A program made the position numbers and the translations under genes. DNA of 64,000 nt from Ignavibacteria bacterium (lineage in GTDB: Bacteria > Bacteroidota > Ignavibacteria > Ignavibacteriales > SURF-24): positions 124,001-188,000 of the forward strand of contig JAAXKQ010000002.1 in NCBI GenBank assembly GCA_025612245.1, written 5' to 3'. This document shows, piece after piece, positions 2,648 through 44,058 of this stretch. Below the pieces are notes generated by a model that was not told where the DNA came from, did no database searches, and saw only the letters and a list, made by a program, of their open reading frames with translations. How positions within the stretch are numbered: the first letter of the stretch is position 1; each line of letters begins with the position of its first letter.

Positions 2648-3325
2648 ATGGATTTAAGCATAAAGGATGTTGCGAACCTTCTGATGCTTGAGAAAAAGGA
2701 AATTGAGAAGTTAGTTAAAAAGAAATTAATCCCTTCTAAAATAATTCAAGACAAGGTCCGTTTCAATAAGCAGGCCATTATAGAATGGGCGCTGCTTAAC
2801 AACAAGCCGCTAAACCTGTCCGATTCCTCGCACTTCAGCGAGTTCAGGTTTGACGGATTGACTTCAATACTGGATGAGGAATCATTCTACCTGAACTGCA
2901 GCTTCACCGAAAGTGACTACGTTGAGGAAATGGTGCGCATGCTCAGGCTCAAAGAGGATATCGACCGCAATGTAATTGCCGAGCTCCTGATAAGCCGCGA
3001 AAAACTGATGTCTACTGCAATCGGAAACGGCATTGCTCTGCCCCATCCAAGAATACCGATCATATTAGGGCGTGAAAAACCCCTTATTTGCTTTTTCTTT
3101 CCAGAAAAGCCTCTCAATATTGAATCTGTCGACGGCGAAGCTGTACATACTCTCATTCTGCTCGTCTCGCAGACAATAAAACAGCACCTGTTTATGCTTG
3201 CACACCTGAGCTATCTGCTCTCAAAGGAAGAATTCCGCAAGGCTCTTAAAAACCGTATTCCCACAGGTGAAATCTTAAGGCTTGTTTCCGGACTTGAAAT
3301 GCAGAGAAGTAAAGCCTCGAATTAA
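2648..3325 (+). CDS. HTH domain fused to PTS EIIA (PtsN-like) domain
   Basis: 225 residues. Residues 1-52 look like a MerR/excisionase-type helix-turn-helix (SIKDVANLLMLEKKEIEKLV, then VRFNKQAIIEWA). Residues about 75-215 are a PTS EIIA type 2 domain with the phosphoryl-accepting histidine H133 in GIALPHPR. EIIA-Ntr proteins take phosphate from NPr and act as regulators, not sugar carriers. The HTH suggests direct DNA binding controlled by EIIA phosphorylation, which is an inference. It sits 71 bases upstream of the Ehr operon in the same direction and could regulate it. No EI, HPr or EIIBC is in the window. Confidence 0.78.
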   Translation: MDLSIKDVANLLMLEKKEIEKLVKKKLIPSKIIQDKVRFNKQAIIEWALLNNKPLNLSDSSHFSEFRFDGLTSILDEESFYLNCSFTESDYVEEMVRMLRLKEDIDRNVIAELLISREKLMSTAIGNGIALPHPRIPIILGREKPLICFFFPEKPLNIESVDGEAVHTLILLVSQTIKQHLFMLAHLSYLLSKEEFRKALKNRIPTGEILRLVSGLEMQRSKASN

Positions 3326-3396: not shown

Positions 3397-5400
3397 ATGA
3401 CCTTAAATTTATTTGCAACTGGACTAGCAATCCAACTGCTCGGGGCCTTACTGTCCCTGGCGTTAAAAGATGATAAAAAGTTTTCAGCTCTCTGCCACTT
3501 TAGTGCGCTTGCAGGAGTTATAATTAGTTTTATGGGCACGCTGGGGATGATAGTGTTCCCGGCCCCTGACATAGTAAATCTCTTTGAGAATTCCACCTGG
3601 GGTGTCTTTAGCCTGCGCTTCGACATGCTGGCGAAATTCTTTACGGCAGTAGTTCAGCTCTTGAGCATTCCGGTACTCATCTACAGCCACAGCTACCAGA
3701 AGCCTTATATTGAGAATGGAAAGAGCGTCAGGCTCCCGGTCTTTTCATTTGTAACACTTGGCCTGTCGCTTCAGGTCCTTACGGTTGCAAATAACGCCGT
3801 GCTGTTTTTAATATTCTGGGAACTGATGGCAATTCTGTCATACGTCAATATGATTTTTGAAAATGAAAAGCCGGAAGTGCAGAAAGGAAGCTTTGTTTAT
3901 TTTGTGGCAACACATGCGGCTACTTTCATACTTTACGTGTTTTTCCTTATGCTGCACGCAAAGGCAGGTTCGTGGAATTTTTCTGACTTCCACGTTGCAA
4001 ATGACGGCACGGCTTTCTATTACGTGCTTTTTGCGCTCGGCTTTACGGGTTTTGCAATTAAGGCGGGCTTTATGCCGTTTCACTTCTGGCTCCCAAAAGC
4101 GCACCCGGTTGCACCCACATACCTCAGCGCATTCCTTTCAGGCGTAATCATTAAGCTCGGCATTTACGGAATCTTCAGGGTAATTGAATTCCTGAGGCCG
4201 GGAGATCCATGGATCGGCTGGGCGGTTGTTTTAGTGAGCCTTGTAAGTGCCATTTTCGGCGTGTGGTATGCACTGGCGCAGCACGACATAAAGACTTTGC
4301 TTGCCTACCATTCAATTGAAAATATAGGCATCATAGGAATTGGCCTTGGCCTGGGCATACTGGGCATTTCATACGGCAACAGAACAATTACGGCCCTTGG
4401 GTTTTCAGGAGCACTTCTTCATACGCTTAATCACGCAATCTTCAAGAGCCAGCTTTTTATCGGTTCTGGCATAATTTACCAGAACCTTCACACACGCAAC
4501 ATCGAGAAGATGGGCGGCATTGTGCATTATGCGCCCTGGCTTACGGCTTTCTTTCTTATTGGTTCCGTTGCAATTTCTGGCATTCCCCCTCTTAACGGCT
4601 TTATTTCGGAGTTTATCATTTATACCGGACTTTTCCAGTCGGGAGGTCTCGCGCCAAATTACACAATTTTTATGCTCCTGGTAACAGTCGGGCTTGCCCT
4701 TGTAGGGGGCCTTGCAGTGGCCTGCTTTACGAAAGTTAATTCCATCATGTTTCTCGGTCTTCAAAGGAGCGATTTTAAGAAGTTCAGGGTTTCAGCAGCC
4801 GAATATTTTTCTATTGGAATGCCTGCACTGCTCTGTATAGTAATTGGTCTTTTCCCCATGCCCGTTTTAAGGCTCGTCTCAGGAGTAACCGACGCCTTTT
4901 TACCCCGTGGCTTTGAGTCTTCATCCAATAACGGCGCAACACTGGGGATGCTTCCTGATTTGTTTCCGCTTACGGTTATTTTTGCGTCACTTTTTGTCCT
5001 GGCGGGAAGCCTCTACGGGTTAAAGAAATACCGCTCCTTAAAACATACGGGCATCAGGGTCTCAAAGCCCTGGGGCTGCGGCAACCAGCACCTGACGCCC
5101 AGGGTACAGTACACCGCCTCCTCATATGCCGATGAACTGAATTCAATTCCTGCAAATATACTTTTACTCAAGGAGCATTCACTTTATCCGCAGGAGATAT
5201 TCCCCGTAAAGGATGCTTTTTACGAATCACATTCCGAAGATTACACGGAAAAGAAAGTCTTTGGGCCTGTTTATTCGGGAATAATTCAGGCACTAAGGAA
5301 GTTCAGTATCCTCAACAAGAGCGACATCAGGGTTTACATTGCCTATATGCTTGTTGCACTGGTTGCGTACTGCATAATCGGATTTTTATGGAAATATTAA
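3397..5400 (+). CDS. hyfB: Ehr complex antiporter-like membrane subunit (HyfB/NuoL-like)
   Basis: 667 residues, strongly hydrophobic with about 14-16 membrane helices. It belongs to the proton-translocating NuoL/M/N and Mrp antiporter family, closest to HyfB/HycC. Family blocks include FWELMAILSYV, GFAIKAGFMPFHFWLPKAHP with the conserved Lys, and LLAYHSIENIGIIGIG. The soluble tail has WGCGNQ and RVQYTASSYADE, typical of HyfB. It is the first gene of the operon and is followed after 21 bases by the HyfC-like subunit. It is expected to move H+ or Na+ across the inner membrane, coupled to electron flow in the peripheral arm. Confidence 0.88.
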   Translation: MTLNLFATGLAIQLLGALLSLALKDDKKFSALCHFSALAGVIISFMGTLGMIVFPAPDIVNLFENSTWGVFSLRFDMLAKFFTAVVQLLSIPVLIYSHSYQKPYIENGKSVRLPVFSFVTLGLSLQVLTVANNAVLFLIFWELMAILSYVNMIFENEKPEVQKGSFVYFVATHAATFILYVFFLMLHAKAGSWNFSDFHVANDGTAFYYVLFALGFTGFAIKAGFMPFHFWLPKAHPVAPTYLSAFLSGVIIKLGIYGIFRVIEFLRPGDPWIGWAVVLVSLVSAIFGVWYALAQHDIKTLLAYHSIENIGIIGIGLGLGILGISYGNRTITALGFSGALLHTLNHAIFKSQLFIGSGIIYQNLHTRNIEKMGGIVHYAPWLTAFFLIGSVAISGIPPLNGFISEFIIYTGLFQSGGLAPNYTIFMLLVTVGLALVGGLAVACFTKVNSIMFLGLQRSDFKKFRVSAAEYFSIGMPALLCIVIGLFPMPVLRLVSGVTDAFLPRGFESSSNNGATLGMLPDLFPLTVIFASLFVLAGSLYGLKKYRSLKHTGIRVSKPWGCGNQHLTPRVQYTASSYADELNSIPANILLLKEHSLYPQEIFPVKDAFYESHSEDYTEKKVFGPVYSGIIQALRKFSILNKSDIRVYIAYMLVALVAYCIIGFLWKY

Positions 5401-5421
5401 CGCATCATTTGAATTAAAATA

Positions 5422-6345
5422 ATGGAAATACTCTCTAAAATAACCATTTACATGGTTTTTATTTTTGCGGCTCCCTTATTCATGGGGCTTGTAAATAAAC
5501 TAAAGGCACGCCTGACCGGGAGGATTGGACCTTCAGTATTCCAGTCCTATTACGACCTGAGGCGCCTGTTGAGAAAGGAGACAATTTATGCCAATTCAGC
5601 TTCTTTCATCAGCCGTATGGCACCCGTAGTAAGCTTTGTAAGCATTCTCTTTGCGGGAATGATCCTTCCCGTCAGCTTTACGAGGCCCTTAATCAGCTTT
5701 AACGGCGATTTGATACTGTTTGCCTATCTGCTCGGGCTTTCGCGATTTTTCCAAATACTGGGTGCCATGGATATTGGAAGCTCATTTGAAGGCATGGGCG
5801 CAGCCCGTGAGGCGACCTTTGCAGTTTTCGCCGAACCGATATACTTTTTTACGCTGGGAAGCCTTGCCTTTATTTTCGGGCGTACCTCCATGTATGAAAT
5901 ATTCCATTCAATTACGCTGGGCGATCCTTCGTTTCTGGTATTCATCGTTGTAGCCAGCATATCGGTTTTCTTTCTCATGATAACGGAAACCTCGCGCATG
6001 CCGGTAGATGACCCGAATACGCACCTGGAGCTAACGATGATACACGAAGTAATGATTCTGGATAATTCCGGGCAGGACCTTTTCCTCTACCAGTATTCTG
6101 CATACCTGAAGATTCTTATCTATGCAACATTTACTTCGAACTTTTTCAACCCTTTCAGTATGGCTGAAAATTACATGATAGGTTTTCTTGTTTATCTGTG
6201 TGTAATGCTTGTGCTCATATGCTGCCTGGTGTGGATCGAAACCATGCTGGGACGTTTTAAGATGAAGAGCATTCCCCAGTATCTGCTCTTTGCAGCCTCA
6301 ATAGGAATTCTTAATCTTCTGATTTATTCATTCTTTAGGAAATAA
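5422..6345 (+). CDS. hyfC: Ehr complex NuoH/HyfC-like membrane subunit
   Basis: 307 residues with about eight membrane helices. It matches the NuoH/HycD/HyfC family: LTGRIGPSVFQSYYDLRRLL on the first loop, a conserved acidic cluster in ITETSRMPVDDPNTHLELTM, and GPSFEGM-like spacing (DIGSSFEGMGAAREATF). This subunit anchors the peripheral arm and forms the entry to the quinone/proton channel in complex I. It lies between HyfB- and HyfE-like genes with short gaps (21 and 10 bases), consistent with one transcript. Confidence 0.87.
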   Translation: MEILSKITIYMVFIFAAPLFMGLVNKLKARLTGRIGPSVFQSYYDLRRLLRKETIYANSASFISRMAPVVSFVSILFAGMILPVSFTRPLISFNGDLILFAYLLGLSRFFQILGAMDIGSSFEGMGAAREATFAVFAEPIYFFTLGSLAFIFGRTSMYEIFHSITLGDPSFLVFIVVASISVFFLMITETSRMPVDDPNTHLELTMIHEVMILDNSGQDLFLYQYSAYLKILIYATFTSNFFNPFSMAENYMIGFLVYLCVMLVLICCLVWIETMLGRFKMKSIPQYLLFAASIGILNLLIYSFFRK

Positions 6346-6355
6346 GTTTTTAGAA

Positions 6356-6991
6356 ATGGGAAACGTATTAAACATATTGTTCTGTCTGAGCCTTCTTTAT
6401 CTTGCAACTACTACAAGGGTGACGGCCTACCTGCAGGTTTTTGTACTGCAGAGCATACTCCTGTTTTTCATAGTTATGATGCCGCTTCTTAATCACCTCT
6501 CGGTCTTTACGCTCGTGCTTCCACTTACAATACTGGTAGTAAAAGCCATACTGATTCCGAGGTATATGAAAAAGAAAATCATCTATGAGCTGGAAATCAA
6601 AACCACAATTGAAGCAAACATTCAGCAGTTCAACTTTCTTCTGCTTTCGGTTTTTTCCATGGTTGCTGTTTTTGTTTCCTGCAACCTGATTACAAAAGAT
6701 GCGGCAGTTGACCCGATCCCTTTTGCCGCGGCTTTTTCGAGCGTAGTGATCGGGCTTTATGTAATAATATTCAGGAAAAAACTGATCGTGCACGTAATAG
6801 GTTTTCTCGTAATGGAAAACGGCATATTCCTGCTGGGTATTGCCGTGGCCTCCGAGATGCCGTTTTTAATTGAGCTCGGGATCCTGCTGGATATCTTTGT
6901 GGTGGTATTCCTGATGGGAATTGCAATTAACAAGATATCTTCGACCTTTGCCGCAGATGAAGTCTCGGCTCTGGACAAACTGAAAAATTAA
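6356..6991 (+). CDS. hyfE: Ehr complex HyfE-like membrane subunit
   Basis: 211 residues with about six or seven membrane helices. The C-terminal half resembles NuoK/MrpC (FLVMENGIFLLGIA, then LGILLDIFVVVFLMG), as known for HyfE of hydrogenase 4. It probably forms part of the small proton-channel bundle between HyfC and the antiporter-like subunits. It follows the HyfC-like gene by 10 bases and precedes the HyfF-like gene by 66 bases. Confidence 0.82.
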   Translation: MGNVLNILFCLSLLYLATTTRVTAYLQVFVLQSILLFFIVMMPLLNHLSVFTLVLPLTILVVKAILIPRYMKKKIIYELEIKTTIEANIQQFNFLLLSVFSMVAVFVSCNLITKDAAVDPIPFAAAFSSVVIGLYVIIFRKKLIVHVIGFLVMENGIFLLGIAVASEMPFLIELGILLDIFVVVFLMGIAINKISSTFAADEVSALDKLKN

Positions 6992-7057
6992 AAGAATAAC
7001 CGGGTTGAAGGGAATCCTCAGGGGTTCTTTTAGCCTTAAACTAAACCTTTTTTTAAG

Positions 7058-8512
7058 ATGCTCGTTTTATTTTACATACTGATCCTCCCGCTTTTAGCCG
7101 GGGGGCTATTTTTCATACCGGGTGGCAAGAAGCTGAAGTATCAGCTTTCGCTGATGGTTTCGGTAGTTCACCTTGCAGCCTCGTATTTAATTTTTGCGGG
7201 CCTTGTTGCTCCCGAACTGCATCAGTGGTTCAGGATAGACGCCTTTTCAAAGCTCTTCCTGCTGATCCTCTCGCACGTTTATTTCTGGGTAGTGCTGAAC
7301 TCATGGCATTTTCTGAACAGGCCAACTGTCTACAGCCCGGACAAGTCGACAAAAATCTTCTTCAGCATAATGAACCTGTATCTTTTTGCAAATACGCTTG
7401 CCCTGATCAGCAACCACCTGGGGCTTTACTGGGTTGCGCTTGAATCGACGACATTGTGTGTGGCCCCGCTGATACACTATTACCGCAATAAAGAATCGCT
7501 TGAGGCCATGTGGAAGTATCTTTTCCTGGTTTCGGTTGGCATTGCCTTTGCATTTATTGGAATTCTTTTCCTGGCTTTTTCAGCTCACGGGACGGACATT
7601 ATTGAAAAGGGGCTTTTCTTAAGCGACCTCATTGAAGGCTCTTCGAAGCTGAACATGGTCTGGCTGAAGGCGGGTTTTATTTTTATATTTGCCGGCTTGA
7701 GCACCAAGGCCGGGATTGCACCGATGCACCCGGGTGAAGTTGATGCCTTAAGCTACTCGCCAAGTCCGGTTGCGGCGCTTGTTTCGGCGTCTTTAAGCGG
7801 CACGGCGCTCATTGGAATCTTCCGGCTAATGCAGATAACGGCAGGAACACCGGTTCACCAGTTTGCGCAGGTGCTCATGATTACGGGCGGAATGATTTCC
7901 CTGCTGGTTGCGCTGGTCTTTATGTTCAAGGTGACAAATTATAAAAGGATGATTGCCTATTCGAGCGTTGAGCACATAGGCCTCATCGTTCTTGGCGCCG
8001 GCATTGGCGGAGCCGCCCTTATAGGCTCAATGCTTCACATGATATTTAACTCTCTTAACAAGACCGCAATGTTTTTGATGGCGGGTAATATTCACCGCAC
8101 ATACAATTCGCGCGAGACCAGGGATGTAAAAGGCGTGCTGAAAAATATGAGGTGGACCGGAATACTTTTCCTGACGGCTTTCCTTGCCGTAATTGCAATG
8201 CCCCCGTTCGGGCTGTTTTTCAGCGAGCTCATGATATTCCGCGGGCTTGTTGAGCAGAACCGTTTCATACTGCTTGCGGTAATTCTTTTTGTGCTGCTGT
8301 TTATTTTTATCGGAATGAGCCGCCAGACGTTTTCAATTCTTTATGGCAAGGCTGAGTCTGAAGGTGAAGCGGCCGAGCCCAAAAGCGAAAAGTTTAATAT
8401 TACGCACCTCTCGGCCCTGGTTTTATTATTGCTTCTGGCCTCGGCAGGGCTGTTTATGCCGGCGGTCTTTACGGATGTAATAAATCAAATTGCAGGAGAG
8501 TTAAGCAGATGA
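7058..8512 (+). CDS. hyfF: Ehr complex second antiporter-like subunit (HyfF/NuoN-like)
   Basis: 484 residues, about 13-14 membrane helices. A second NuoM/N-type ion-translocating subunit like HyfF: the charged motif GLSTKAGIAPMHPGEVDALSY, MIAYSSVEHIGLIVLG, and HMIFNSLNKTAMFL. Its stop overlaps the start of the large-subunit gene by 4 bases, so the two are likely translationally coupled. Having two antiporter-like subunits fits the Hyf/Ehr layout and not the single-antiporter Ech or formate hydrogenlyase-1 layouts. Confidence 0.85.
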   Translation: MLVLFYILILPLLAGGLFFIPGGKKLKYQLSLMVSVVHLAASYLIFAGLVAPELHQWFRIDAFSKLFLLILSHVYFWVVLNSWHFLNRPTVYSPDKSTKIFFSIMNLYLFANTLALISNHLGLYWVALESTTLCVAPLIHYYRNKESLEAMWKYLFLVSVGIAFAFIGILFLAFSAHGTDIIEKGLFLSDLIEGSSKLNMVWLKAGFIFIFAGLSTKAGIAPMHPGEVDALSYSPSPVAALVSASLSGTALIGIFRLMQITAGTPVHQFAQVLMITGGMISLLVALVFMFKVTNYKRMIAYSSVEHIGLIVLGAGIGGAALIGSMLHMIFNSLNKTAMFLMAGNIHRTYNSRETRDVKGVLKNMRWTGILFLTAFLAVIAMPPFGLFFSELMIFRGLVEQNRFILLAVILFVLLFIFIGMSRQTFSILYGKAESEGEAAEPKSEKFNITHLSALVLLLLLASAGLFMPAVFTDVINQIAGELSR

Positions 8513-9990
8513 AACGTTTGACAGTACAGAACCAGAGGCCCTTTGAGACATCCAAAGTTCCCGAGCTTTCGGTCCCGGAATTTGAAAGCGAGGTGGGGCA
8601 GATACTAAGTGAAGGTAGCCGGATGATGGGGCTTTTTGCAGTTGAAGCCTCAGTGGATTCTAAAAAAGTGCTTGCGGTTTTGGGCAACGATGAAACCTCG
8701 CAGATATACCTTGTAAAGTGTCTTTTTACGGGTGAAAGCATGCGCTTTAACAGCTTTGCAAATGAGTATCCCAACACAAATTATTTTGAGTGCGAGCTGG
8801 CTGAGAATTCACTGATTGTTCCGGAAGGTCATCCGTGGCTCCGTCCGGTAAGGAAGCAAACCGTAATTCTGGGCAACATTCCCTATGAATTCTACAGCAT
8901 GCAGGGCGACGAGGTGCACGAAGTTGCAGTCGGTCCGGTACACGCGGGTGTAATTGAGCCGGGGCATTTCCGTTTCCAGTGCCACGGGGAAGAGATTTAT
9001 CACCTGGAAATCAGCCTGGGATACCAGCACAGGGGTCTGGAAAAGCTCTTGCTTACGCAGGATGAAAATAAGCGTGCCGTGCTGGTTGAATCGATTGCAG
9101 GCGATTCGGTAGTTGCGCACAGCATGGCTTACTCGCTTGCCGTGGAAGCCCTTTCAAGAACAAGCGTTTCCTTGAGGGCAAGCGTCATACGCTCGGTTGC
9201 CGAAGAGCTCGAAAGGATTGCAATGCATCTTTCGGGCCTTTCGGGCATTGCAAACGACATAGGCTTTGCCATTGGCGCTGCTGCATACGGGAGGTTAAGG
9301 ACGCTCGTAATCAACAGCCTGCTTCTTCTTTGCGGCTCCAGGTTCGGCCGTGGGCTGGTAAGACCCGGAGGCGTAATGTTCGACCTGACGGAGAAAAGTG
9401 CAAACAAAATCACTGAAAACCTCATAAAGGTCCAGCAGGACATAAGTGAGATAAACGATTTTATGTTCAGCTCAACTTCGGTTATGACACGCCTTGAGGC
9501 CACAGGGAAGGTCAGTCTCAAGTGGGCCGGGGCCATAGGCATGGTCGGTCCTGCCGCAAGGGCTTCCGGCATCAGGACAGACGTGCGCTCGGGCTTCCCG
9601 TACGGAGCCTACAGGTATCATTCAATTCAGACGGTAACGCTTGATTCAGGAGACGTATATGCGCGAGCCAGGATGCGTTCGCTTGAAATTGAAGAGTCGC
9701 TTGGCTATATACTTGAAAGGTTTGTGGACATTCCGCAGGGGGAAACAAGGTCTGAGGTGAACCCGCTCATGGAAAATTCGGGCGTAATTTCGCTTTCCGA
9801 AGGCTGGCGCGGCGAGATAATGCACGCCATATTAACCGGCCCTGATGGAAAAATTAAAACCTACAAGGTAAAGGATCCGTCATTTAACAACTGGTACGGC
9901 CTGGCGCTTTCGGTAAGAAACGAGGGAATTTCCAACTTCCCGCTGTGCAATAAAAGCTTCGACCTGTCTTATTCCGGGCATGACCTGTAG
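8509..9990 (+). CDS. hyfG: Ehr complex large subunit, hydrogenase-like without Ni-Fe cysteines (HyfG/NuoCD-like)
   Basis: 493 residues: a short NuoC-like N-terminal part (about 15-120) followed by the 49-kDa/hydrogenase large-subunit fold (LEISLGYQHRGLEKLL, EELERIAMHLSGL, RPGGV). In group 4 [NiFe] hydrogenases two CxxC pairs hold the metal. Here the first pair reads E194-S-I-A-G-D-S-V, so A197 and S200 replace cysteine. The second, at the extreme C-terminus, reads FDLSYSGHDL, so S487 and G490 replace cysteine. No Ni-Fe site can form. This matches the known energy-converting-hydrogenase-related (Ehr) complexes, where the cavity may bind a quinone-like or other substrate. The substrate is unknown. 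Confidence 0.87.
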   Translation: MKRLTVQNQRPFETSKVPELSVPEFESEVGQILSEGSRMMGLFAVEASVDSKKVLAVLGNDETSQIYLVKCLFTGESMRFNSFANEYPNTNYFECELAENSLIVPEGHPWLRPVRKQTVILGNIPYEFYSMQGDEVHEVAVGPVHAGVIEPGHFRFQCHGEEIYHLEISLGYQHRGLEKLLLTQDENKRAVLVESIAGDSVVAHSMAYSLAVEALSRTSVSLRASVIRSVAEELERIAMHLSGLSGIANDIGFAIGAAAYGRLRTLVINSLLLLCGSRFGRGLVRPGGVMFDLTEKSANKITENLIKVQQDISEINDFMFSSTSVMTRLEATGKVSLKWAGAIGMVGPAARASGIRTDVRSGFPYGAYRYHSIQTVTLDSGDVYARARMRSLEIEESLGYILERFVDIPQGETRSEVNPLMENSGVISLSEGWRGEIMHAILTGPDGKIKTYKVKDPSFNNWYGLALSVRNEGISNFPLCNKSFDLSYSGHDL

Positions 9991-10040: not shown

Positions 10041-10793
10041 ATGTATAAAGGGATCAAGATACGCCTGGCTCAGGGAGAGCCGGCAATAAAAGATTTACAA
10101 AAGGCCGAGCTGCCTGAACTCTTCAGGGGTATGCCTCAGATTGATACAACAAGGTGCACCGTGGGCTGCAGAACCTGCCGCGATGCGTGCCCTACGGGCG
10201 CAATCATGCTGGAGCCCTTGAGGCTAGACCTTGGCAAATGCACTTTCTGCTCCATTTGCACGGATTGCTGCCCTGCAGGAGCGTTAAGTTTTACTTCCAA
10301 TTACCACATTGCGTCATCCACGCGGCAGGGGCTAATTACGGATGGCAGGCTTTCAGGAGGCATTAAGCCCACGGCTGCCTCAGAGGAGATTAAAAAATAT
10401 TTCGGGCATTCGCTTAAGCTCAGGCAGGTTTCTGCCGCCGGGTGCAACGGCTGCGAACTGGAGTTAAATGCCCTGGGGAACGTTAACTTCGACATGGGGC
10501 GCTACGGAATTGAGTTTGTTGCCTCCCCGAGGCATGCCGACGGAATTGTAATTACGGGCCCGGTATCAAAGGCGATGTCAAAGGCGCTTCATGAAACCTA
10601 TGAGGCCGTTCCATCTCCAAAGATCATAATTTTATTTGGCGCCTGTCCGATCAGCGGCGGCATCTTTCAGGATTCTGAAGAAACCGACAGGTCGTTCCTC
10701 GGGGATTTCAGCGCGGACCTTTACATCCCCGGATGCCCGCCACACCCATTGACATTTATCTCGGGCATTTTGGACTGGCTCGAAAGGAAGTAA
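10041..10793 (+). CDS. Ehr complex small subunit: 2x[4Fe-4S] ferredoxin fused to NuoB/HyfI domain
   Basis: 250 residues that combine two usually separate subunits. Residues 38-80 hold two cluster motifs: C39-x3-C43-x2-C46-x3-C50-P and C67-x2-C70-x2-C73-x3-C77-P. The first has one residue more than usual between its first two cysteines. Residues about 125-250 are the NuoB/HyfI small subunit with its four cluster ligands C135, C138 (GCNGCELE), C202 (GACPISGG) and C232 (IPGCPPHP). All iron-sulfur ligands are intact although the partner large subunit has lost its metal site, so electron transfer is likely retained. It is the last gene of the operon and is followed by two hairpins. Confidence 0.87.
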   Translation: MYKGIKIRLAQGEPAIKDLQKAELPELFRGMPQIDTTRCTVGCRTCRDACPTGAIMLEPLRLDLGKCTFCSICTDCCPAGALSFTSNYHIASSTRQGLITDGRLSGGIKPTAASEEIKKYFGHSLKLRQVSAAGCNGCELELNALGNVNFDMGRYGIEFVASPRHADGIVITGPVSKAMSKALHETYEAVPSPKIIILFGACPISGGIFQDSEETDRSFLGDFSADLYIPGCPPHPLTFISGILDWLERK

Positions 10794-10816
10794 CAGGCAT
10801 TAAAATCCTTTAAAAT

Positions 10817-10858
10817 AAGGGCAAACGGCTGAGTGCTTAAAGCCGCCTGTTGGCCCTT
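10817..10858 (+). terminator. hairpin after Ehr operon, terminator-like
   Basis: AAGGGC at 10817-10822 pairs with GCCCTT at 10853-10858, and an inner stem CGGCT/AGCCG strengthens it. It begins 24 bases after the small-subunit stop. The T-run after it is poor, so termination may be incomplete and backed up by the second hairpin. Confidence 0.45.
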
Positions 10859-10920
10859 TACTGTCCCAAAATCGAACACGTGGCTAATAGTGACCAAGTG
10901 CTTAGCCTCATTCAATAAAT

Positions 10921-10955
10921 AAAGCGCGAAAACGCTCCATTTTCGCGCTTTTTCC
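10921..10955 (+). terminator. rho-independent terminator before flagellar operon
   Basis: A perfect 12-bp stem AAAGCGCGAAAA / TTTTCGCGCTTT with a 7-base loop, followed by more T residues. The near-symmetry means it could act on both strands. It separates the Ehr operon from the flagellar operon. Confidence 0.85.
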
Positions 10956-10978
10956 CGCCCCAAAAGCCGAAATTCAGG

Positions 10979-10994
10979 TGGTATATTCTTTGCA
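10979..10994 (+). promoter_or_regulatory. sigma-54 type promoter upstream of flagellar operon
   Basis: The sequence TGGTATATTCTTTGCA matches the -24/-12 consensus TGGCACG-N4-TTGCA: GG at 10980-10981 and GC at 10992-10993 with exactly 10 bases between. A start of transcription about 12 bases downstream would lie near 11005, just before the first gene at 11022. Sigma-54 control of flagellar genes is established in several other phyla. No enhancer-binding protein gene is in the window. Confidence 0.55.
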
Positions 10995-11021
10995 CTTCTA
11001 AGCAAAAAATTATTAGATGAA

Positions 11022-11249
11022 ATGAATAAGATTATCGTGCAAATAGGGTTGTTGGTTTTTTTTATTTCAGTCATCTTTTTCAGTCAAAAAGAAATGGCAA
11101 TCCAGGATATACTTGTCCGCTCCCTGGTATTGTTTGTCGCCTCTACAATAATGTTGAGTCTTCTGTATCTGGTATTTGTAAGATCGATAAATAAAATGGC
11201 CGTTTCCAAAAGGAAAAGTTTTTCAGATAACATTGGCAGAGGACAGTAA
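11022..11249 (+). CDS. small membrane protein, first gene of flagellar operon
   Basis: 75 residues with two hydrophobic helices (about 4-21 and 31-52) and a basic C-terminal tail (KMAVSKRKS), so a small inner-membrane protein. It ends 3 bases before fliA and sits directly behind the sigma-54-like promoter, which supports it being translated. An upstream ATG at 11016 is followed by a stop after one codon, so 11022 is the likely start. No family recognised; a role in motility is inferred from position only. Confidence 0.55.
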   Translation: MNKIIVQIGLLVFFISVIFFSQKEMAIQDILVRSLVLFVASTIMLSLLYLVFVRSINKMAVSKRKSFSDNIGRGQ

Positions 11250-11252
11250 AAT

Positions 11253-11879
11253 ATGAATACTGCGCTTTTATGGACTCAATTTAAGCAATCTCACAATTCT
11301 GACTTGAAAAAGCAGATTATGATGAACTATACCAACCTGGTCCATTACGTCATTCATAATTCAAAGTTTATTTCTTTGAACATTGTGGACGACAGGGACT
11401 ATTTCCAGTTTGGAATTGAGGGGCTCAGCGAAGCCATAGACAGGTTCGATCCTGAATACGGTACCAAATTCGAAACTTACGCCATACAGAGAATTCGCGG
11501 CAAAATTATTGACGAACTCAGAAAAATCCAGATCAAACCCAGAAGTGCAAACACTGCTGAGGGCGATACTACTTATACAAACGTCTCCCTCAATAACTCT
11601 TATGATGAGGAAGACGGATACATGCTTTACGAAGTGATTCCAAATGAAGGTGAATTGCCCGATGAAGCCTTAGATAAAAATGAAGCGAAAGAACTGCTGT
11701 TAAACGCAATTAAAAGACTAGAGGAAAGGGATAGGCTGGTATTAACTTTATACTATTATGAGAATTTGAATTACAAGGAGATTGCTCAGGTTCTGAATAT
11801 TACTGTTTCGCGCGTTTCGCAGATACACTCTAAAATAATTCAGGAACTTAAACATAAACTTGTAAGACAGTATGACTGA
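11253..11879 (+). CDS. fliA: flagellar sigma factor sigma-28 (FliA/WhiG type)
   Basis: 208 residues, short for a sigma-70 family member and typical of sigma-28. Region 2 is seen in DYFQFGIEGLSEAIDRFDP and GTKFETYAIQRIRGKIIDEL, region 3 in the segment after residue 90, and region 4 HTH in LNYKEIAQVLNITVSRVSQIH. It directs RNA polymerase to late flagellar promoters, normally held by FlgM; no flgM is in the window. The 3' end overlaps the next gene by 8 bases, so it is translated as part of the flagellar operon. Confidence 0.88.
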   Translation: MNTALLWTQFKQSHNSDLKKQIMMNYTNLVHYVIHNSKFISLNIVDDRDYFQFGIEGLSEAIDRFDPEYGTKFETYAIQRIRGKIIDELRKIQIKPRSANTAEGDTTYTNVSLNNSYDEEDGYMLYEVIPNEGELPDEALDKNEAKELLLNAIKRLEERDRLVLTLYYYENLNYKEIAQVLNITVSRVSQIHSKIIQELKHKLVRQYD

Positions 11880-12750
11880 AATTACTCCGGAACTGCAGAA
11901 AAGAAAAGAAAAAAGCAAGAATACACTTGCACAAGTCTATAACCTGCCTTCCATACCTCTGGTAATGATGGAAGTTACCAGACTTTTAAACAACCCTAAT
12001 ACAAGCGCCATTGAGCTGGCTAAAGTCATCAGCCGCGACCAGGCGCTGGTTACAAAAATTCTTTCTGTGGCAAATTCCCCCCTCTACGGGTTGCCCAGAA
12101 GGGTCTCTACAATTGATTTCGCCATTATCATACTGGGTTTCGACCATATAAAGAACATAGTCATTGCCCTTTCGATGATGGAGGCTTTTAAGAATAAGAG
12201 TGACAAAAACCTGAATCAGAAGAAGTACTGGACGCATTCAATACTTACTGCCAGTGCCGCAAAGAGGATAGCCGACGACCTGGGATTTCACTTCACGGGC
12301 GAAGCCTTTACGGCAGGACTGCTTCACGACCTGGGCATACCGGTCATACACAAGTACTTCAATTCAGAGTTTATAAAGATCCAGGAGCTTGCCGAGCAGG
12401 AAAACCTGAGCTACAAGCAAGCACAACAGGAGGTCATAGGGCTGGAGCACCAGCAGATCGGCAACCTTCTGGCACAGAGATGGAATCTGCCGCTTTCATT
12501 GAGCGACTCAATACTCTACCACCACACGCCTTCAATGGCTGAGCAGAACGTCCCCCTGGCTGCAATCGTTCACCTGGCGGACTATATGACCGTAAAACTC
12601 GATACGGGCTGCTTCCAGTGGGATGGAAATTTCGAGCTCGACAAAAAAATTATTACAATACTTAACCTGAGGGACGAGGAATTCCTGGAAAACTTCATCA
12701 TGCGCTACAAAGAACCTTTTCTCAGCCAGGTAGACGCAATTCAGATATAG
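11872..12750 (+). CDS. HDOD-domain signalling protein (copy 1)
   Basis: 292 residues, almost all one HDOD domain (about 25-225): LPSIPLVMMEVTRLL at the start, AELAKVISRDQALVTKILSVANS, an HD pair in GLLHDLGIP, and LYHHTP. HDOD proteins are HD-domain relatives that act in signal transduction and often sit with chemotaxis or motility genes; most have no proven enzymatic activity. The neighbouring gene is a close paralog with the same landmarks in the same order, so a tandem duplication is clear. It overlaps fliA by 8 bases. Confidence 0.82.
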   Translation: MTEITPELQKRKEKSKNTLAQVYNLPSIPLVMMEVTRLLNNPNTSAIELAKVISRDQALVTKILSVANSPLYGLPRRVSTIDFAIIILGFDHIKNIVIALSMMEAFKNKSDKNLNQKKYWTHSILTASAAKRIADDLGFHFTGEAFTAGLLHDLGIPVIHKYFNSEFIKIQELAEQENLSYKQAQQEVIGLEHQQIGNLLAQRWNLPLSLSDSILYHHTPSMAEQNVPLAAIVHLADYMTVKLDTGCFQWDGNFELDKKIITILNLRDEEFLENFIMRYKEPFLSQVDAIQI

Positions 12751-37891: not shown

Positions 37892-40054
37892 TCAGATGAA
37901 TAAGAGTATGTTGTCCCGTAGTTCTTTCCAGACATCGGTTCGGGCAAATTCGTCAAATGCTTCTTCTCCACCGGGATAACTGCTCTTAATCTGGCCGAGT
38001 GTAATGGCTTCGGTTGAATTGACGGAAGCTTTCCGGGCAATTTCTTTTATCCAGTTTGCCGTGCGGAAATCCAGTTTCCAGTCGGCTGCAATTGAATTGC
38101 CGTGCACGCTCAGGTCCAGTTCCATTTTGCCTGCCTTTGCAGTTAAAGGTTCGGCAGCCGCCCAGAGGACCCTTTTTCTGTCTTCCGGGTGATACTTATC
38201 CTGCGTGTCAGAAATAAAACTGCTTATGAGCGACTTATTGATGCTGCTTTTAGGCACCCTGAAATCAAACCAGCGCGTTACGTCCCAGTCGAGTCCGATT
38301 CCGTGCATGTAGTTATACAGGGCCTTATTAAGTCCGTCGGAATAATTGCCGTAGTTAGTTCCTGAAAGGCTCTTATAGCTGAGGTCGTTATTGGCAAAAG
38401 GGTTTTGCGTGGAAGAGAGCACCTCAATATTAAAATCAACCGCGTTAGCTGCAATGGGGCTGTGTGCGGTAAGTGAAAACAGGTGCCAGAAGCCCGACTG
38501 GAAAAGGTTATTTTTAATAAACTGGCGCACCAGTTCCAGGCTGTTAATTATCTCCTGTGGGGTTTCTGTCGGGAAGCCGTACATAAGGTATGCATGCACC
38601 ATAATGCCGGAATCCCTGAAGCCTTTGCACACCCTGGCAACCTGGCTTAATGTAACTCCCTTATTAATCAGTCTGAGTATCCTTTCGTCGGCAACCTCAA
38701 GGCCGCCGCTTACGGCAATGCAGCCGGAAAGGGCCATGAGTCGTGCGAGGTCCTCTGTAAAAGCTTTTTCAAAGCGTATGTTACCCCACCAGCTTACGGC
38801 AAGATTGCGCCTGAGGATTTCGAGCGAGATTTCCTTAAGCAAAGCCGGCGGCGCGGCTTCATCTGTAAAGTGAAAAGCGGTTTTACCCGTCTCTGCAATC
38901 ATGTCCTCCATCCAGTCGACAATTGTTACGGCTCTTGCAGGGCTGTAGCGTTTTATATAATCCAGCGAAATGTCGCAGAAAGTACATTTGTGCCAGTAGC
39001 ATCCGTGGGCAGCCGTAAGCTTATGCCAGTATCCGTCGGACCATATCCTGTGCATCGGGTTCAGCATTTCGGTTACAGGGACGTACTTATCCGGATCTAT
39101 GCCTTCCAGTGATGGGGGGAAGAGTTCGTCGTGCTGGAGGTTTTTCTCTTTCGCGTCATCCCGGTAGAGAAGCTTCCCACGCTCTCTTGAAAGTGTGCGG
39201 ACGAATTGGCTAGTCTGGCCTTCAAGCGCACGGATAATATTCAGTATCGGGAGTTCACCGTCATCATAGGTTATGTAATTCGTATAGTCAAACATTCTTT
39301 CATCGCTCAAAGACCTGAGCTCTGTGTTAATGTAGCCTCCGCCAAAAGCAATTTTTATACCTGGGTAATATGCCTTAATGTACTTAGACGAGATTAGCGC
39401 ACCGAGAAGGTTGCCCGGAAAAGGGACCGTAAAACCCACCAGTGCCGGGTTAAAGCATTCAATTTCCTTTGCCAGCTCTTCAAGCATCATCTCTTCAATT
39501 AAGTTACATGGGCGGTTTAATTCCTTCAGAATCGGGTCGAAGTATGGAGGGCTCTGCGCCAGCTTTTCAGCATATCGGCTAAGGCGGAAAAAAGGCGTAA
39601 CGGTTCTGGCGATTATCTCCGTAATGTCGTCGATTAAAAGTGAAGAATAGTATTTTGCCTTGTCCTGAAGGCTGAAATACCCGAAAGCCTTCTTTTCATC
39701 TGAAGCCCTCGAAAAGGCATCCCCTTCAGGCAGGAATCCATCCTGTACTATTCTGTAGGCCAGGTTCGGATTTTTCCCCTGCAGGAAATTTATAACCGGC
39801 CCGATGGTGCTAATGTACTTGTCCGAGAGCGAAAGGGCTCTTTTTATCATTTCGTCCTGGCTGTGCAGGGACCTGATATGAGAGAATATTCTCTCAAGGC
39901 CCTGCCTGGAAAATATCTTCAGGGCTACAGCTAATGAAAGATCAAACGTCCTGGCGTCGTAGCCTCTTGACTTTAGAAAACCTGAAAGCTGCAAGGCAGA
40001 GGGATAAGGCGTATTGATCTGTGAGAAAGGAGGAATTACAAGTAATACTTTCAT
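37892..40054 (-). CDS. B12-binding radical SAM protein
   Basis: 720 residues. The N-terminal third contains a B12-binding-like Rossmann domain (VLLVIPPFSQINTPYPSALQLSGFL, then FGGGYINTEL and a DYITYDDGE segment). The radical SAM core follows with cluster cysteines C352, C357 and C360 in GCYWHKCTFCD. The spacing is Cx4Cx2C and not the canonical Cx3Cx2C. Substrate unknown. The gene is single and convergent with tcdA. Confidence 0.83.
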   Translation of the reverse strand: MKVLLVIPPFSQINTPYPSALQLSGFLKSRGYDARTFDLSLAVALKIFSRQGLERIFSHIRSLHSQDEMIKRALSLSDKYISTIGPVINFLQGKNPNLAYRIVQDGFLPEGDAFSRASDEKKAFGYFSLQDKAKYYSSLLIDDITEIIARTVTPFFRLSRYAEKLAQSPPYFDPILKELNRPCNLIEEMMLEELAKEIECFNPALVGFTVPFPGNLLGALISSKYIKAYYPGIKIAFGGGYINTELRSLSDERMFDYTNYITYDDGELPILNIIRALEGQTSQFVRTLSRERGKLLYRDDAKEKNLQHDELFPPSLEGIDPDKYVPVTEMLNPMHRIWSDGYWHKLTAAHGCYWHKCTFCDISLDYIKRYSPARAVTIVDWMEDMIAETGKTAFHFTDEAAPPALLKEISLEILRRNLAVSWWGNIRFEKAFTEDLARLMALSGCIAVSGGLEVADERILRLINKGVTLSQVARVCKGFRDSGIMVHAYLMYGFPTETPQEIINSLELVRQFIKNNLFQSGFWHLFSLTAHSPIAANAVDFNIEVLSSTQNPFANNDLSYKSLSGTNYGNYSDGLNKALYNYMHGIGLDWDVTRWFDFRVPKSSINKSLISSFISDTQDKYHPEDRKRVLWAAAEPLTAKAGKMELDLSVHGNSIAADWKLDFRTANWIKEIARKASVNSTEAITLGQIKSSYPGGEEAFDEFARTDVWKELRDNILLFI

Positions 40055-40312
40055 TAAAATTGCTTTACATTCTTCTTTGAAACATGACCCCGCGTAACTT
40101 ACGGAATAACTCTGAAAAACTATGAATAATAAATGTGCCAGTCAAGGAATAAGAATTTCTGTAAGCAAACTACTTACATTAAATTCAGAAAATGCCCTAT
40201 GTTTTATTTTTTATACGGGTTTTATTTTTCATTAGTGCAGTGAAATTACAAATGGGCATGCAGTTTTCTCATAAATATTAAATTAGTCGGAAACTAAGCA
40301 TCAGAGAAAATT

Positions 40313-41002
40313 ATGAATGAAATAGAAAAGAAAAAGTTCGGGATGTACCGGGATGTTTTGAGCCTGCTGACAAAGCACACGGAGGTTTGTGTGAAGCTGG
40401 AGGCTGTGGCATTTTTAATTGCAAAGTTACGCAAAACAATGGATGAGATTGAGCAGGCAGACAGGAATGTAACAACACAGGAAGCTCTGGACCTGACAAT
40501 AGAAGGCCGGGCCGGAAAAGAGAGTCTGACTGCCGATCTGAGGTGCATTGCGCAGTCGCTTTTTAATTATTCCAGGCAGTCGGCTATCCTTGAATTAAAA
40601 GACAGTGCGAAGTATACTCAAAGTTACTTTCTTCATTTACCGGATGCGGAATTTTTAAGCAAAGCTGAAAGCCTGAGGCTTTTGTCGCTGAAATACATTG
40701 TGGAATTAAGGCACATGGGAATTACGCCGAACATAATTCACGGTCTCGGCTTAAAAATAGAATATTTCAGGAGGGCGCTGGAGAAAAAAGTTTTAGCATC
40801 GAAAGCCGGGTCAGGCAGGACGCAGCTTTCGGGGCTTTTTTTGATTGCCGACCAGGTACTTGAAAATACGGATAAGCTGATTGGTTCAATGCCGGATGAA
40901 TTTGAAGAGTTCTATGAAGAGTATATATGTGCGAGGGATTTTGAAAACCAGGAAAGGCGAAAAGCCCTGCTGGATTTAGAGGAGGATGAGGGCTATAATT
41001 AA
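40313..41002 (+). CDS. alpha-helical protein of unknown function (family shared with 33241)
   Basis: 229 residues, all-helical, no signal or membrane segment, acidic C-terminus. It shares the block NTDKLIGSM-x5-FYEEYICAR with the protein at 33241. The helix containing GRAGKESL also resembles the TKARLIEF helix of the other. The two genes are 6 kb apart, so this is a small paralogous family in the same region. A terminator follows at 41032. Confidence 0.6.
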   Translation: MNEIEKKKFGMYRDVLSLLTKHTEVCVKLEAVAFLIAKLRKTMDEIEQADRNVTTQEALDLTIEGRAGKESLTADLRCIAQSLFNYSRQSAILELKDSAKYTQSYFLHLPDAEFLSKAESLRLLSLKYIVELRHMGITPNIIHGLGLKIEYFRRALEKKVLASKAGSGRTQLSGLFLIADQVLENTDKLIGSMPDEFEEFYEEYICARDFENQERRKALLDLEEDEGYN

Positions 41003-41031
41003 TTGAATAAGGGCAATTCAATTAACGACAG

Positions 41032-41059
41032 GAAGGGCAAAGTGGTCTTTGCCCTTTTT
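41032..41059. terminator. bidirectional rho-independent terminator
   Basis: Stem AAGGGCAAAG / CTTTGCCCTT with a 4-base loop and T-run on the + strand. It lies between the + gene ending at 41002 and the - gene ending at 41088 and may serve both. Confidence 0.85.
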
Positions 41060-41087
41060 TATGGGTGAAAAACTAACAAGTGTTACT

Positions 41088-41822
41088 TCACTTATTCATC
41101 TTCCAGTCTTCCAGGTCCTTTATGTCGTCCTGGTTGCTTTTTATCATTTGTTTAGCCAGGCGGATCAGGTCCTCGTTTTTACCTTTATCCAGGTAGGTGT
41201 TTGCCATATCGATTGCATGCTGGTGATGCATGATCATCATGCTGACGTAGTCATTATCCTGGTCCCCGGTCATCTGCATGTTCTGCATCTGGCTCATCAT
41301 TTTATGCTCAGCCGAGCCCGTCATGTCGTCGGTATCCATTCTTCTATGCATTGAGGAATCCTTATGCATACTCATGCCGCTCTGGTCGGTTTTTACAAAT
41401 TTCTGCAGTTTCTGAATGTCACTCTGCTGGTCCATAATTGTTTTTTCGGCCATTGTAATGATCTTCTGGTCTTTCCCCTTGTTGACTTCATTTTCCGACA
41501 TTCTGATAGCTCCCTTGTGGTGCTGTATCATCATTGCCGCAAAATCCTCATCCGGGTCGCCGGTCCTCTGAACGTTCATCATGCTGTCGCGCATCTCTCC
41601 CATCATTGCCTTCATGCCGCCGGTCGATTCGTTCATCTCGTCGTGTGACCTTTGAGTCATGCCTGTGTCGGTTTGCATGCCTTTATCCGTACGGCTTGTA
41701 TCCTGAAGGCTTCTGTTCAGTGCGGCATAATTATTTGAACCTGCAAGCAGAACGAAGCCAGCTGTAAAAATGCAAATCAAAAACATACATCTTTCCAGAC
41801 CTGATATGAAAAACTTCGACAT
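41088..41822 (-). CDS. exported DUF305 protein with two repeats
   Basis: 244 residues with an N-terminal signal or anchor segment (about 10-30). Two DUF305-like ferritin-fold repeats occur at about 90-140 and 180-240: FAAMMIQHHKGAIRMSENEV and YVSMMIMHHQHAIDMANTYL, each with the HH pair. The linkers are rich in Met, Asp and His and could bind copper or another metal. The start is supported by AAGGAGG upstream. DUF305 proteins are often near copper-resistance genes, but none is in this window. Confidence 0.78.
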   Translation of the reverse strand: MSKFFISGLERCMFLICIFTAGFVLLAGSNNYAALNRSLQDTSRTDKGMQTDTGMTQRSHDEMNESTGGMKAMMGEMRDSMMNVQRTGDPDEDFAAMMIQHHKGAIRMSENEVNKGKDQKIITMAEKTIMDQQSDIQKLQKFVKTDQSGMSMHKDSSMHRRMDTDDMTGSAEHKMMSQMQNMQMTGDQDNDYVSMMIMHHQHAIDMANTYLDKGKNEDLIRLAKQMIKSNQDDIKDLEDWKMNK

Positions 41823-41912
41823 ATCATTTTCCTCCTTAATGTTTTTAATCTATCGTGCAAAAATAGGATACTATCAATGCCATACATTGTCAATGCAATA
41901 ACCTGCCTATTC

Positions 41913-41926
41913 CTTTAGGCGTCAAC
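41913..41926 (+). repeat. 14-bp inverted repeat, left end
   Basis: CTTTAGGCGTCAAC, the exact reverse complement of 44087-44100. It stops matching by one base on both sides. Confidence 0.75.
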
Positions 41927-42056
41927 GTAAGGGAATAGGATAAAAGATAAGCCGCCTTTGAGTGCAAAATACCATAAACTGTTTTTTGACAAGAAAAACG
42001 AAAGATTATGATAGTTATGAAAACAAACAGCAGCAAGAATATATAAATTATGATGA

Positions 42057-42296
42057 AGGAAGATAGTTGGAACACTAATAAATAAGAGTTTACTGTCTAA
42101 GTGGGATAAGTTTCAAAATAGGCTGATCAAGGGTTTTAAGAATATATTCATACAGGATTCTACTTTCTTGGGCTTTGATGGGAATTTATATGAAGATTAT
42201 CCAGGCAGTGTCAACCAGAATAAGAACTCTAAAGTCTCTGGTCTGAAGGTGCGGGCCATTTATAATGCAGTAAAAAATGTTTCATTGTTAATTTAA
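42057..42296 (+). pseudogene. IS4-family transposase fragment
   Basis: An open stretch of 79 codons without a proper start. It reads IFIQDSTFLGFDGNLYEDYP then GSVNQNKNSKVSGLKVRAIY, the region around the first catalytic Asp (DST) of IS4-type DDE transposases. The rest of the protein, including the other catalytic residues, is absent. Its stop overlaps the 3' end of the convergent hydrolase gene by a few bases. Confidence 0.68.
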
Positions 42297-43799: not shown

Positions 43800-43998
43800 T
43801 TGTTCTTACGGGTTACTTGGATAGATATTAATTATTGCTTTGCAAAAAATATGGAAATAAGTGGAGAAATGCATTATTAACTGCCCCCCGTATGGTACCC
43901 TCATAGAAAAGACAATATGATATTAAAGAAAGATATTACATTATGAACAGCGGCACTAATATACAATGAAGGATAATGTAAAATGGAAGGATAGTTAA

Positions 43999-44058
43999 AA
44001 AGAAGGGCTTTCGATTGAGGAATTTGAGATCCTGAAGCGGGAAATATGTCTTAACTGA
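43999..44058 (+). pseudogene. possible C-terminal transposase fragment
   Basis: A 19-codon open piece (EGLSIEEFEILKREICLN then stop), with upstream codons in the same frame interrupted by a stop. It ends 28 bases before the right inverted repeat, where an IS transposase would end. Too short to be sure. The rest of the gap 43800-44197 holds only the right repeat. Confidence 0.25.

Follow-up and report, generated by a model that had tools for sequence, protein, structure and literature searches.

An Ehr-type complex of an Ignavibacteria bacterium with a conserved replacement of the Ni-Fe site and an EIIA-encoding gene at the head of its operon

The Ehr (Ech-hydrogenase-related) complex is a known kind of membrane complex that was described before, reportedly also in Coppi 2005 and Marreiros 2013, and is biochemically uncharacterized. 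To date, Ehr has been reported in Geobacter sulfurreducens, Nitrospira, Melainabacteria and Margulis-/Saganbacteria, where no function was assigned to it (PMC7894505, PMC12342949, PMC10284858, PMC6349859, PMC3787301). The complex occurs in many phyla, where its annotation differs from case to case (hydrogenase 4, formate hydrogenlyase or NADH dehydrogenase). Here, we analyzed a stretch of 64,000 nucleotides from an Ignavibacteria bacterium (the window; assembly GCA_025612245.1, contig JAAXKQ010000002.1, positions 124,001 to 188,000), which carries an Ehr operon whose large subunit, EhrL (493 amino acids; 8509..9990, + strand), lacks all four Ni-Fe cysteines. Judged from its sequence, Ehr here is probably a working enzyme, neither a broken hydrogenase nor a link to complex I. 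We agree with the initial annotation of the window that what fills the emptied site is a real biological question, and the candidates are narrowed by quinone-poor hosts, a kept proton-transfer glutamate and a hydrogenase-type proximal cluster.

Among the described systems, formate hydrogenlyase-2 and -1 of E. coli (Hyf and Hyc) are the closest hydrogenases by tree, sequence and fold. The window complex has homologues of HyfB, HyfC, HyfE, HyfF and HyfG and the EPGHFR loop, but it lacks the Ni-Fe cysteines, the C-terminal cleavage extension, HyfD, HyfA and FdhF, and the functions of HyfH and HyfI are fused in its small subunit, EhrS. The membrane-bound sulfane sulfur reductase MBS (6u8y) is likewise a hydrogenase-derived ion pump that has lost its Ni-Fe site; however, two of the four Ni-Fe cysteines remain in MBS, which has no equivalent of the hydrogenase glutamate E21 and holds its proximal cluster with three cysteines (PMC7684303), whereas Ehr has none of the four Ni-Fe cysteines, keeps the glutamate as E150 and has four proximal-cluster cysteines in hydrogenase spacing. 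With complex I (NuoCD, NuoB and NuoH), Ehr shares the fold, the loss of all four cysteines and D250, which aligns with Nqo4 D139, but it has neither H38 and Y87 nor an NADH module, its proximal motif is CxxC and not CC, and it stands apart in the tree. Published Ehr complexes also consist of group-4-hydrogenase-like subunits without Ni-Fe cysteines, and the Melainabacteria and one Nitrospirota sequence share a clade with the window; the window operon differs in beginning with a gene for a helix-turn-helix (HTH)-EIIA protein, which is absent from the Melainabacteria and Nitrospirota Ehr loci checked, the Geobacter sequence having been left out of this comparison. On these sequence features, the complex is of Ehr type, with two antiporter-like subunits and NuoH-like, HyfE-like and small iron-sulfur (Fe-S) subunits encoded in one operon, and it fails the tests for a [NiFe] hydrogenase, complex I and MBS.

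EhrL is encoded by an intact open reading frame and combines a NuoC-like N-terminal domain with a NuoD/HycE-like domain. When EhrL is aligned with E. coli HycE and HyfG, their motif RVCGICG is matched by S195-I-A197-G-D-S200 and DPCYSC by F484-D-L-S487-Y-S-G490, and the four cysteines are replaced by A197, S200, S487 and G490, exactly as initially annotated. The first degenerate motif (E194-S-I-A197-G-D199-S200) lies at 9088..9108 and the second, together with the C-terminus (N481-K-S-F-D-L-S487-Y-S-G490-H-D-L493), at 9949..9987, both on the + strand. A sequencing error is ruled out as the cause of the missing cysteines, since the same replacement is found in 118 further cysteine-less relatives. 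Residues were counted in these 119 sequences (the window plus 118 relatives), which span many phyla, and in 22 group 4 [NiFe] sequences. D199, N481, K482, S483, L486, S487, Y488 and D492 are each present in 119/119 cysteine-less sequences, whereas the group 4 [NiFe] sequences have Ile at position 199 (22/22), Leu/Ile/Met/Val, Ala/Gly and Ala/Ser at the counterparts of 481, 482 and 483, and Pro, Cys, Tyr/Phe and Glu/Asp at those of 486, 487, 488 and 492. Residue 490 is Gly in 118/119; residues 197 and 200 are variable but small, the former mostly Ala or Ser and at times a lone Cys, the latter Ser, Thr, Asn or Ala. The ratio of nonsynonymous to synonymous substitution rates (dN/dS) is 0.04-0.18 between close pairs, and more than 70 residues are invariant in a 48-sequence alignment. 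Because the replacement residues are invariant in all 119 sequences and dN/dS is low, the alignments indicate that the replacement site is under selection and is not decaying.

The glutamate E150, which corresponds to MbhL E21, the proton-transfer Glu of hydrogenases, is kept in EhrL, in 87/88 clade-I sequences and in 12/12 clade-II sequences; its retention in these two clades suggests that whatever EhrL reduces would take up protons. No cleavable C-terminal extension is present in the alignment: the last residues of EhrL, HDL, coincide with the point at which the protease of HycE cuts to give its mature C-terminus. The AlphaFold2 model of EhrL (predicted local distance difference test, pLDDT, 90; predicted template modeling score, pTM, 0.91) has HycE (7z0s_E) as its closest solved fold, with a template modeling (TM) score of 0.86 over 505 columns. 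As for the maturation genes to which the initial annotation pointed, HypD was not found in the host genome (4.84 Mb, 97% complete; E. coli control positive), HypA/B/C/E/F having not been searched, nor was it found in 30/46 other Ehr genomes. A family search returned no PF00374 protein from the host genome, but this probe for large subunits was dropped because EhrL itself is not matched by it. Three separate NuoD genes of the complex-I type are present in the host, and a genome of the same order, Ignavibacteriales (G093), carries a locus listed as Melioribacter sp. MnB_16. The Ehr operon was also found in Stygiobacter electus, a host that has been cultivated, and in relatives of Melioribacter.

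In two maximum-likelihood trees of large subunits rooted on NuoD, three cysteine-less Ehr groups and one four-cysteine sequence form a single clade (support 100/100), which is sister to HycE/HyfG inside the group 4 [NiFe] hydrogenases (support 100/99); EhrL groups with Melainabacteria and Nitrospirota sequences in trees that leave out the published Ehr reference sequences, Geobacter among them. A forced clade of Ehr and NuoD is rejected (approximately unbiased test, p-AU 0.003). The initial annotation had described the complex as a complex-I/hydrogenase intermediate of Ehr type. The assignment to Ehr, and not to a hydrogenase, holds; the intermediate is ruled out by the tree position and the rejected Ehr+NuoD clade, and the CxxC motif and E150 speak against it as well. 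A position inside bona fide hydrogenases had been named beforehand as grounds for giving up the interpretation, and this is the topology obtained, yet the cysteines are truly absent.

The four-cysteine sequence, L116, comes from a metagenome-assembled genome (MAG) of Omnitrophota (G260; L139:8415-10046, minus strand). It carries all four Ni-Fe cysteines in the motifs RLCGACS and ELCYACCDR, its locus has the same six-gene order and fused small subunit as Ehr, and it branches below all cysteine-less Ehr members (support 100/91). Because of this position, the simplest reading suggests that the Ni-Fe ligands were lost once within a Hyf-like hydrogenase lineage, in parallel to complex I and MBS and thus beside, not on the way to, complex I. 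L116 has the appearance of a hydrogenase ancestor that still lives, but we draw the conclusion with caution, since HypD was not found in its MAG, its branch is long, and it is the only four-cysteine Ehr-like sequence among the best 31 of 62 matches in 384 Omnitrophota genomes.

EhrS (250 amino acids; 10041..10793, + strand; PF12838/PF01058) consists of a ferredoxin-type 2x[4Fe-4S] domain fused to a NuoB/HycG-like domain. All of its 12 Fe-S cysteines are kept, as had been noted at the outset (C39, C43, C46 and C50; C67, C70, C73 and C77; C135, C138, C202 and C232), and those of the proximal cluster, C135, C138, C202 and C232, are found in 78, 78, 78 and 76 of 78 relatives. The proximal motif C135-x-x-C138 (10443..10454, + strand) is of the hydrogenase type, whereas complex I has adjacent cysteines, CC (PMC7684303). 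The HyfB/C/E/F-like membrane subunits reported in the initial annotation were recovered by Pfam and NCBIfam at 3397-8512, all on the + strand: EhrA1, a HyfB/NuoL-like antiporter-type subunit (667 amino acids; 3397..5400; PF00361), EhrB, a HyfC/NuoH-like membrane anchor (307 amino acids; 5422..6345; PF00146), EhrC, a HyfE/NuoK-like subunit (211 amino acids; 6356..6991; PF00420), and EhrA2, a HyfF-like antiporter-type subunit (484 amino acids; 7058..8512; PF00361), the stop of which overlaps the start of EhrL (8512 versus 8509). The proton path is kept in EhrA1 (E142, K222 and E405 in transmembrane helices TM5, TM7 and TM12) and in EhrA2 (E129, K217 and E390), and EhrC retains the glutamate of its MENG motif. 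HycC has Leu in place of the TM7 Lys (PMC9474812), and in our alignment this Leu stands against Lys in both EhrA1 and EhrA2. In comparison with HyfC, HycD and NuoH, the coupling loop of EhrB, DDPNTHLELTMIHEVMILDNSG, is specific to the Ehr clade, NuoH and HyfC having a loop of the AEAEQEL type. The residues expected of an ion-pumping member of the complex I superfamily (TM5 Glu, TM7 Lys and TM12 Lys/Glu) are thus present.

The first gene of the operon (2648..3325, + strand) encodes a protein of 225 amino acids that combines an HTH_17 domain with an EIIA_2 domain of the phosphotransferase system (PTS) (PF12728 + PF00359). The gene order EIIA-A1-B-C-A2-L-S is kept among relatives, the six-gene Ehr order being intact across phyla, and an EIIA homologue heads the Ehr operon in most relatives whose contig reaches far enough, among them members of Ignavibacteria, Lentisphaeria, Spirochaetota and Omnitrophota. 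The histidine of the phospho-acceptor type, H133, and a second histidine, H180, are present in 53/53 homologues. Among loci with a readable upstream region, 32/33 EIIA-bearing ones lie in genomes with HPr and 9/9 without EIIA in genomes without HPr (Fisher p 2e-8, without correction for kinship; two or more independent events). This EIIA partner tracking HPr offers a testable handle on Ehr regulation. Unphosphorylated PtsN of E. coli inhibits a cation/proton antiporter (PMC11808508), which gives a precedent for an EIIA protein acting directly on a pump. Two further arrangements join EIIA_2 to transport proteins: in one Ignavibacteria genome, the gene for a SulP-STAS-EIIA_2 fusion stands between those for the large and the small subunit in a clade-II Ehr operon (L143:6939-9137), and a fusion of EIIA_2 with a Na+/H+ exchanger is encoded next to a clade-I operon (L083:1039-2796). 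In 11 loci of one relative group, the EIIA gene is also directly preceded by a SulP gene of like orientation, and SulP stands two genes upstream in L082 and divergently in L046; it is lineage-specific, which rules out SulP as a general Ehr partner. We found no open-access paper linking EIIA or SulP with hydrogenase-4 or Ehr, and the EIIA partner of the Ehr operon is apparently previously unreported. In the spirochaete locus L046, which has the usual upstream EIIA gene, the Ehr operon is directly followed by an EIIA_2-CBS gene (11311-12213).

Our preferred reading, to which we give about half of our credence, is that the Ehr complex is a redox-driven ion pump of Hyf-like build that has no hydrogenase chemistry and uses a small proton-requiring acceptor. 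Electrons from a low-potential donor, presumably of the ferredoxin type, would pass through the two ferredoxin-like clusters of EhrS to the proximal cluster and would reduce a small acceptor, which is probably not H+ and need not be a quinone, in the cavity that once held Ni-Fe and would now be lined by D199, N481, K482, S483, S487, Y488 and D492. E150 would supply protons to this reduction, turnover would drive H+ or Na+ through EhrB, EhrC, EhrA1 and EhrA2, and the HTH-EIIA protein may make the expression or activity of Ehr depend on whether the PTS is phosphorylated. The route taken by MBS, in which a cluster lacking part of its ligands carries out the reduction directly, is unlikely because all four proximal-cluster cysteines are kept. 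A bolder version, which we regard as doubtful, turns the former Ni-Fe pocket into a new active site without metal (D199/K482/N481/S483/S487/Y488), where a small anion is reduced with protons from E150; the complex would be gated by PTS phosphorylation through EIIA and, in some cases, supplied by a SulP anion transporter whose gene lies within the operon or adjoins it; if true, Ehr would be a third hydrogenase-derived end to a complex-I-type chain, after polysulfide and quinone.

Several observations weigh against the pump with a small proton-requiring acceptor. Clade III mostly has Gly at position 150 (18/19), so E150 is not universal, and the pocket loops 142-151 and 489-493 are of low confidence in the AlphaFold2 model, which was made without EhrS. 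The number of cysteines in the ferredoxin domain varies, C39, C43 and C46 being present in 44-48/78 EhrS relatives, and the EIIA-HPr association is phylogenetically clustered (one Cyanobacteriota/Melainabacteria clade and one Nitrospirota). The host genome has MenD, and a quinone acceptor is possible in this host. Incompleteness of MAGs may inflate the absences of genes, single absences being weak and the pattern across clades stronger.

The alternative that survives best, possible but in our judgment rather unlikely, is a ferredoxin:quinone oxidoreductase that takes menaquinone into its emptied cavity in the manner of complex I. EhrL shares the chamber and fold of NuoD/NuoCD, the alignment of D250 with Nqo4 D139 and the MenD of the host are in line with such a function, and MBS shows a hydrophobic chamber that opens once Ni-Fe is gone (PMC7684303). 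However, I149 and G198 stand in place of Nqo4 H38 and Y87, the charged residues D199 and K482 are invariant in the cavity region, and the proximal motif is CxxC, not CC. Moreover, no menaquinone pathway is detectable in 22/47 Ehr genomes (no MenD over the cut-off and no MqnA/D), including two large Lentisphaeria and all 8 gut-type Melainabacteria tested, and UbiA-family proteins are missing altogether from 5/47, among them two Lentisphaeria of 5.9-6.7 Mb. The quinone-like pocket contemplated in the initial annotation is therefore weak, as is quinone as a general acceptor of Ehr. A view of Melainabacteria as strictly quinone-free had to be softened, since some of them have been suggested to make vitamin K (PMC3787301); MqnA/D occurs in 2/10 Melainabacteria/Cyanobacteriota genomes (G165 and G185).

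We also think it unlikely that the site is plugged by a putative D199-K482 salt bridge together with hydrogen bonds, EhrL serving only as a coupling scaffold while electrons leave EhrS to a soluble NAD(P)- or formate-linked partner encoded elsewhere. Such a plug fits the opposite charges that residues 199 and 482 invariantly carry, an FDH-Ehr complex has been proposed (PMC6349859), and Geobacter Ehr subunits are higher on formate (PMC7894505); yet a plug needs neither E150 nor hydrogenase-type ligands, both of which are kept, and no Fdh or NuoEF-like gene is present in or beside the window operon. Reverse operation, in which the proton-motive force pushes electrons uphill to ferredoxin, has been published as a hypothesis for Melainabacteria (PMC3787301) and accords with the ferredoxin-type domain fused in EhrS and the conserved pump residues, but it requires an electron donor at the EhrL site, and we consider it very improbable. 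Scarcely credible is the view that Ehr is a hydrogenase remnant without function on which selection has been relaxed, a view that one 2026 paper (PMC13194489) takes of Ehr in Geobacter KN400, reporting ehrA-2 and ehrB missense mutations in long-term cultures: the Ni-Fe site is indeed absent, but the low dN/dS, the more than 70 invariant residues and the six-gene order intact across phyla rule out relaxed selection. The invariant signature and low dN/dS argue for an active enzyme, and the published picture of a non-functional, drifting Ehr is contradicted by these comparisons at least for the clade of the window.

The initial annotation had also warned that the complex would be misread as hydrogenase 4 by name-based annotation. 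This applies to EhrA1, EhrC and EhrA2, the best NCBIfam matches of which are hydrogenase-4 models (subunit B for EhrA1, 500.6 bits against a cut-off of 667; membrane subunit for EhrC; subunit F for EhrA2), every one under its cut-off, but not to EhrL, the best match of which is NuoD (180 bits, cut-off 360). The operon contains no HyfD, and Rfam gave no match within the window. A glycosyl-hydrolase-like gene lies upstream of the operon, and directly after it, at 11253-11879, a short FliA/WhiG-family sigma factor (208 amino acids) with sigma regions 2 and 4 only is encoded, which appears to head a flagellar gene region. Farther along, 40001-44000 has a G+C content of 0.397 versus about 0.46, with a gene for a beta-lactamase-family protein at 42288-43799.

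Some related loci show further features. Two diverged Ehr operons (L041 and L097) lie close together on one Lentisphaeria contig, CAIPAT010000028.1, in a genome without a UbiA-family, MenD or MqnA/D match. A cysteine-less clade-II Ehr operon (L140) is followed by a gene for a CbiM-type cobalt/nickel uptake protein (10442-11344) and preceded by one for an ArsR-type regulator (1516-1845), and similar ArsR genes stand before several Omnitrophota clade-I operons. In L080 and L084, the Ehr operon is followed by a second full membrane module, A1-B-C-A2 (about 11155-16127 in L080), which has no large or small subunits of its own and may be a doubled membrane arm or a separate transporter.

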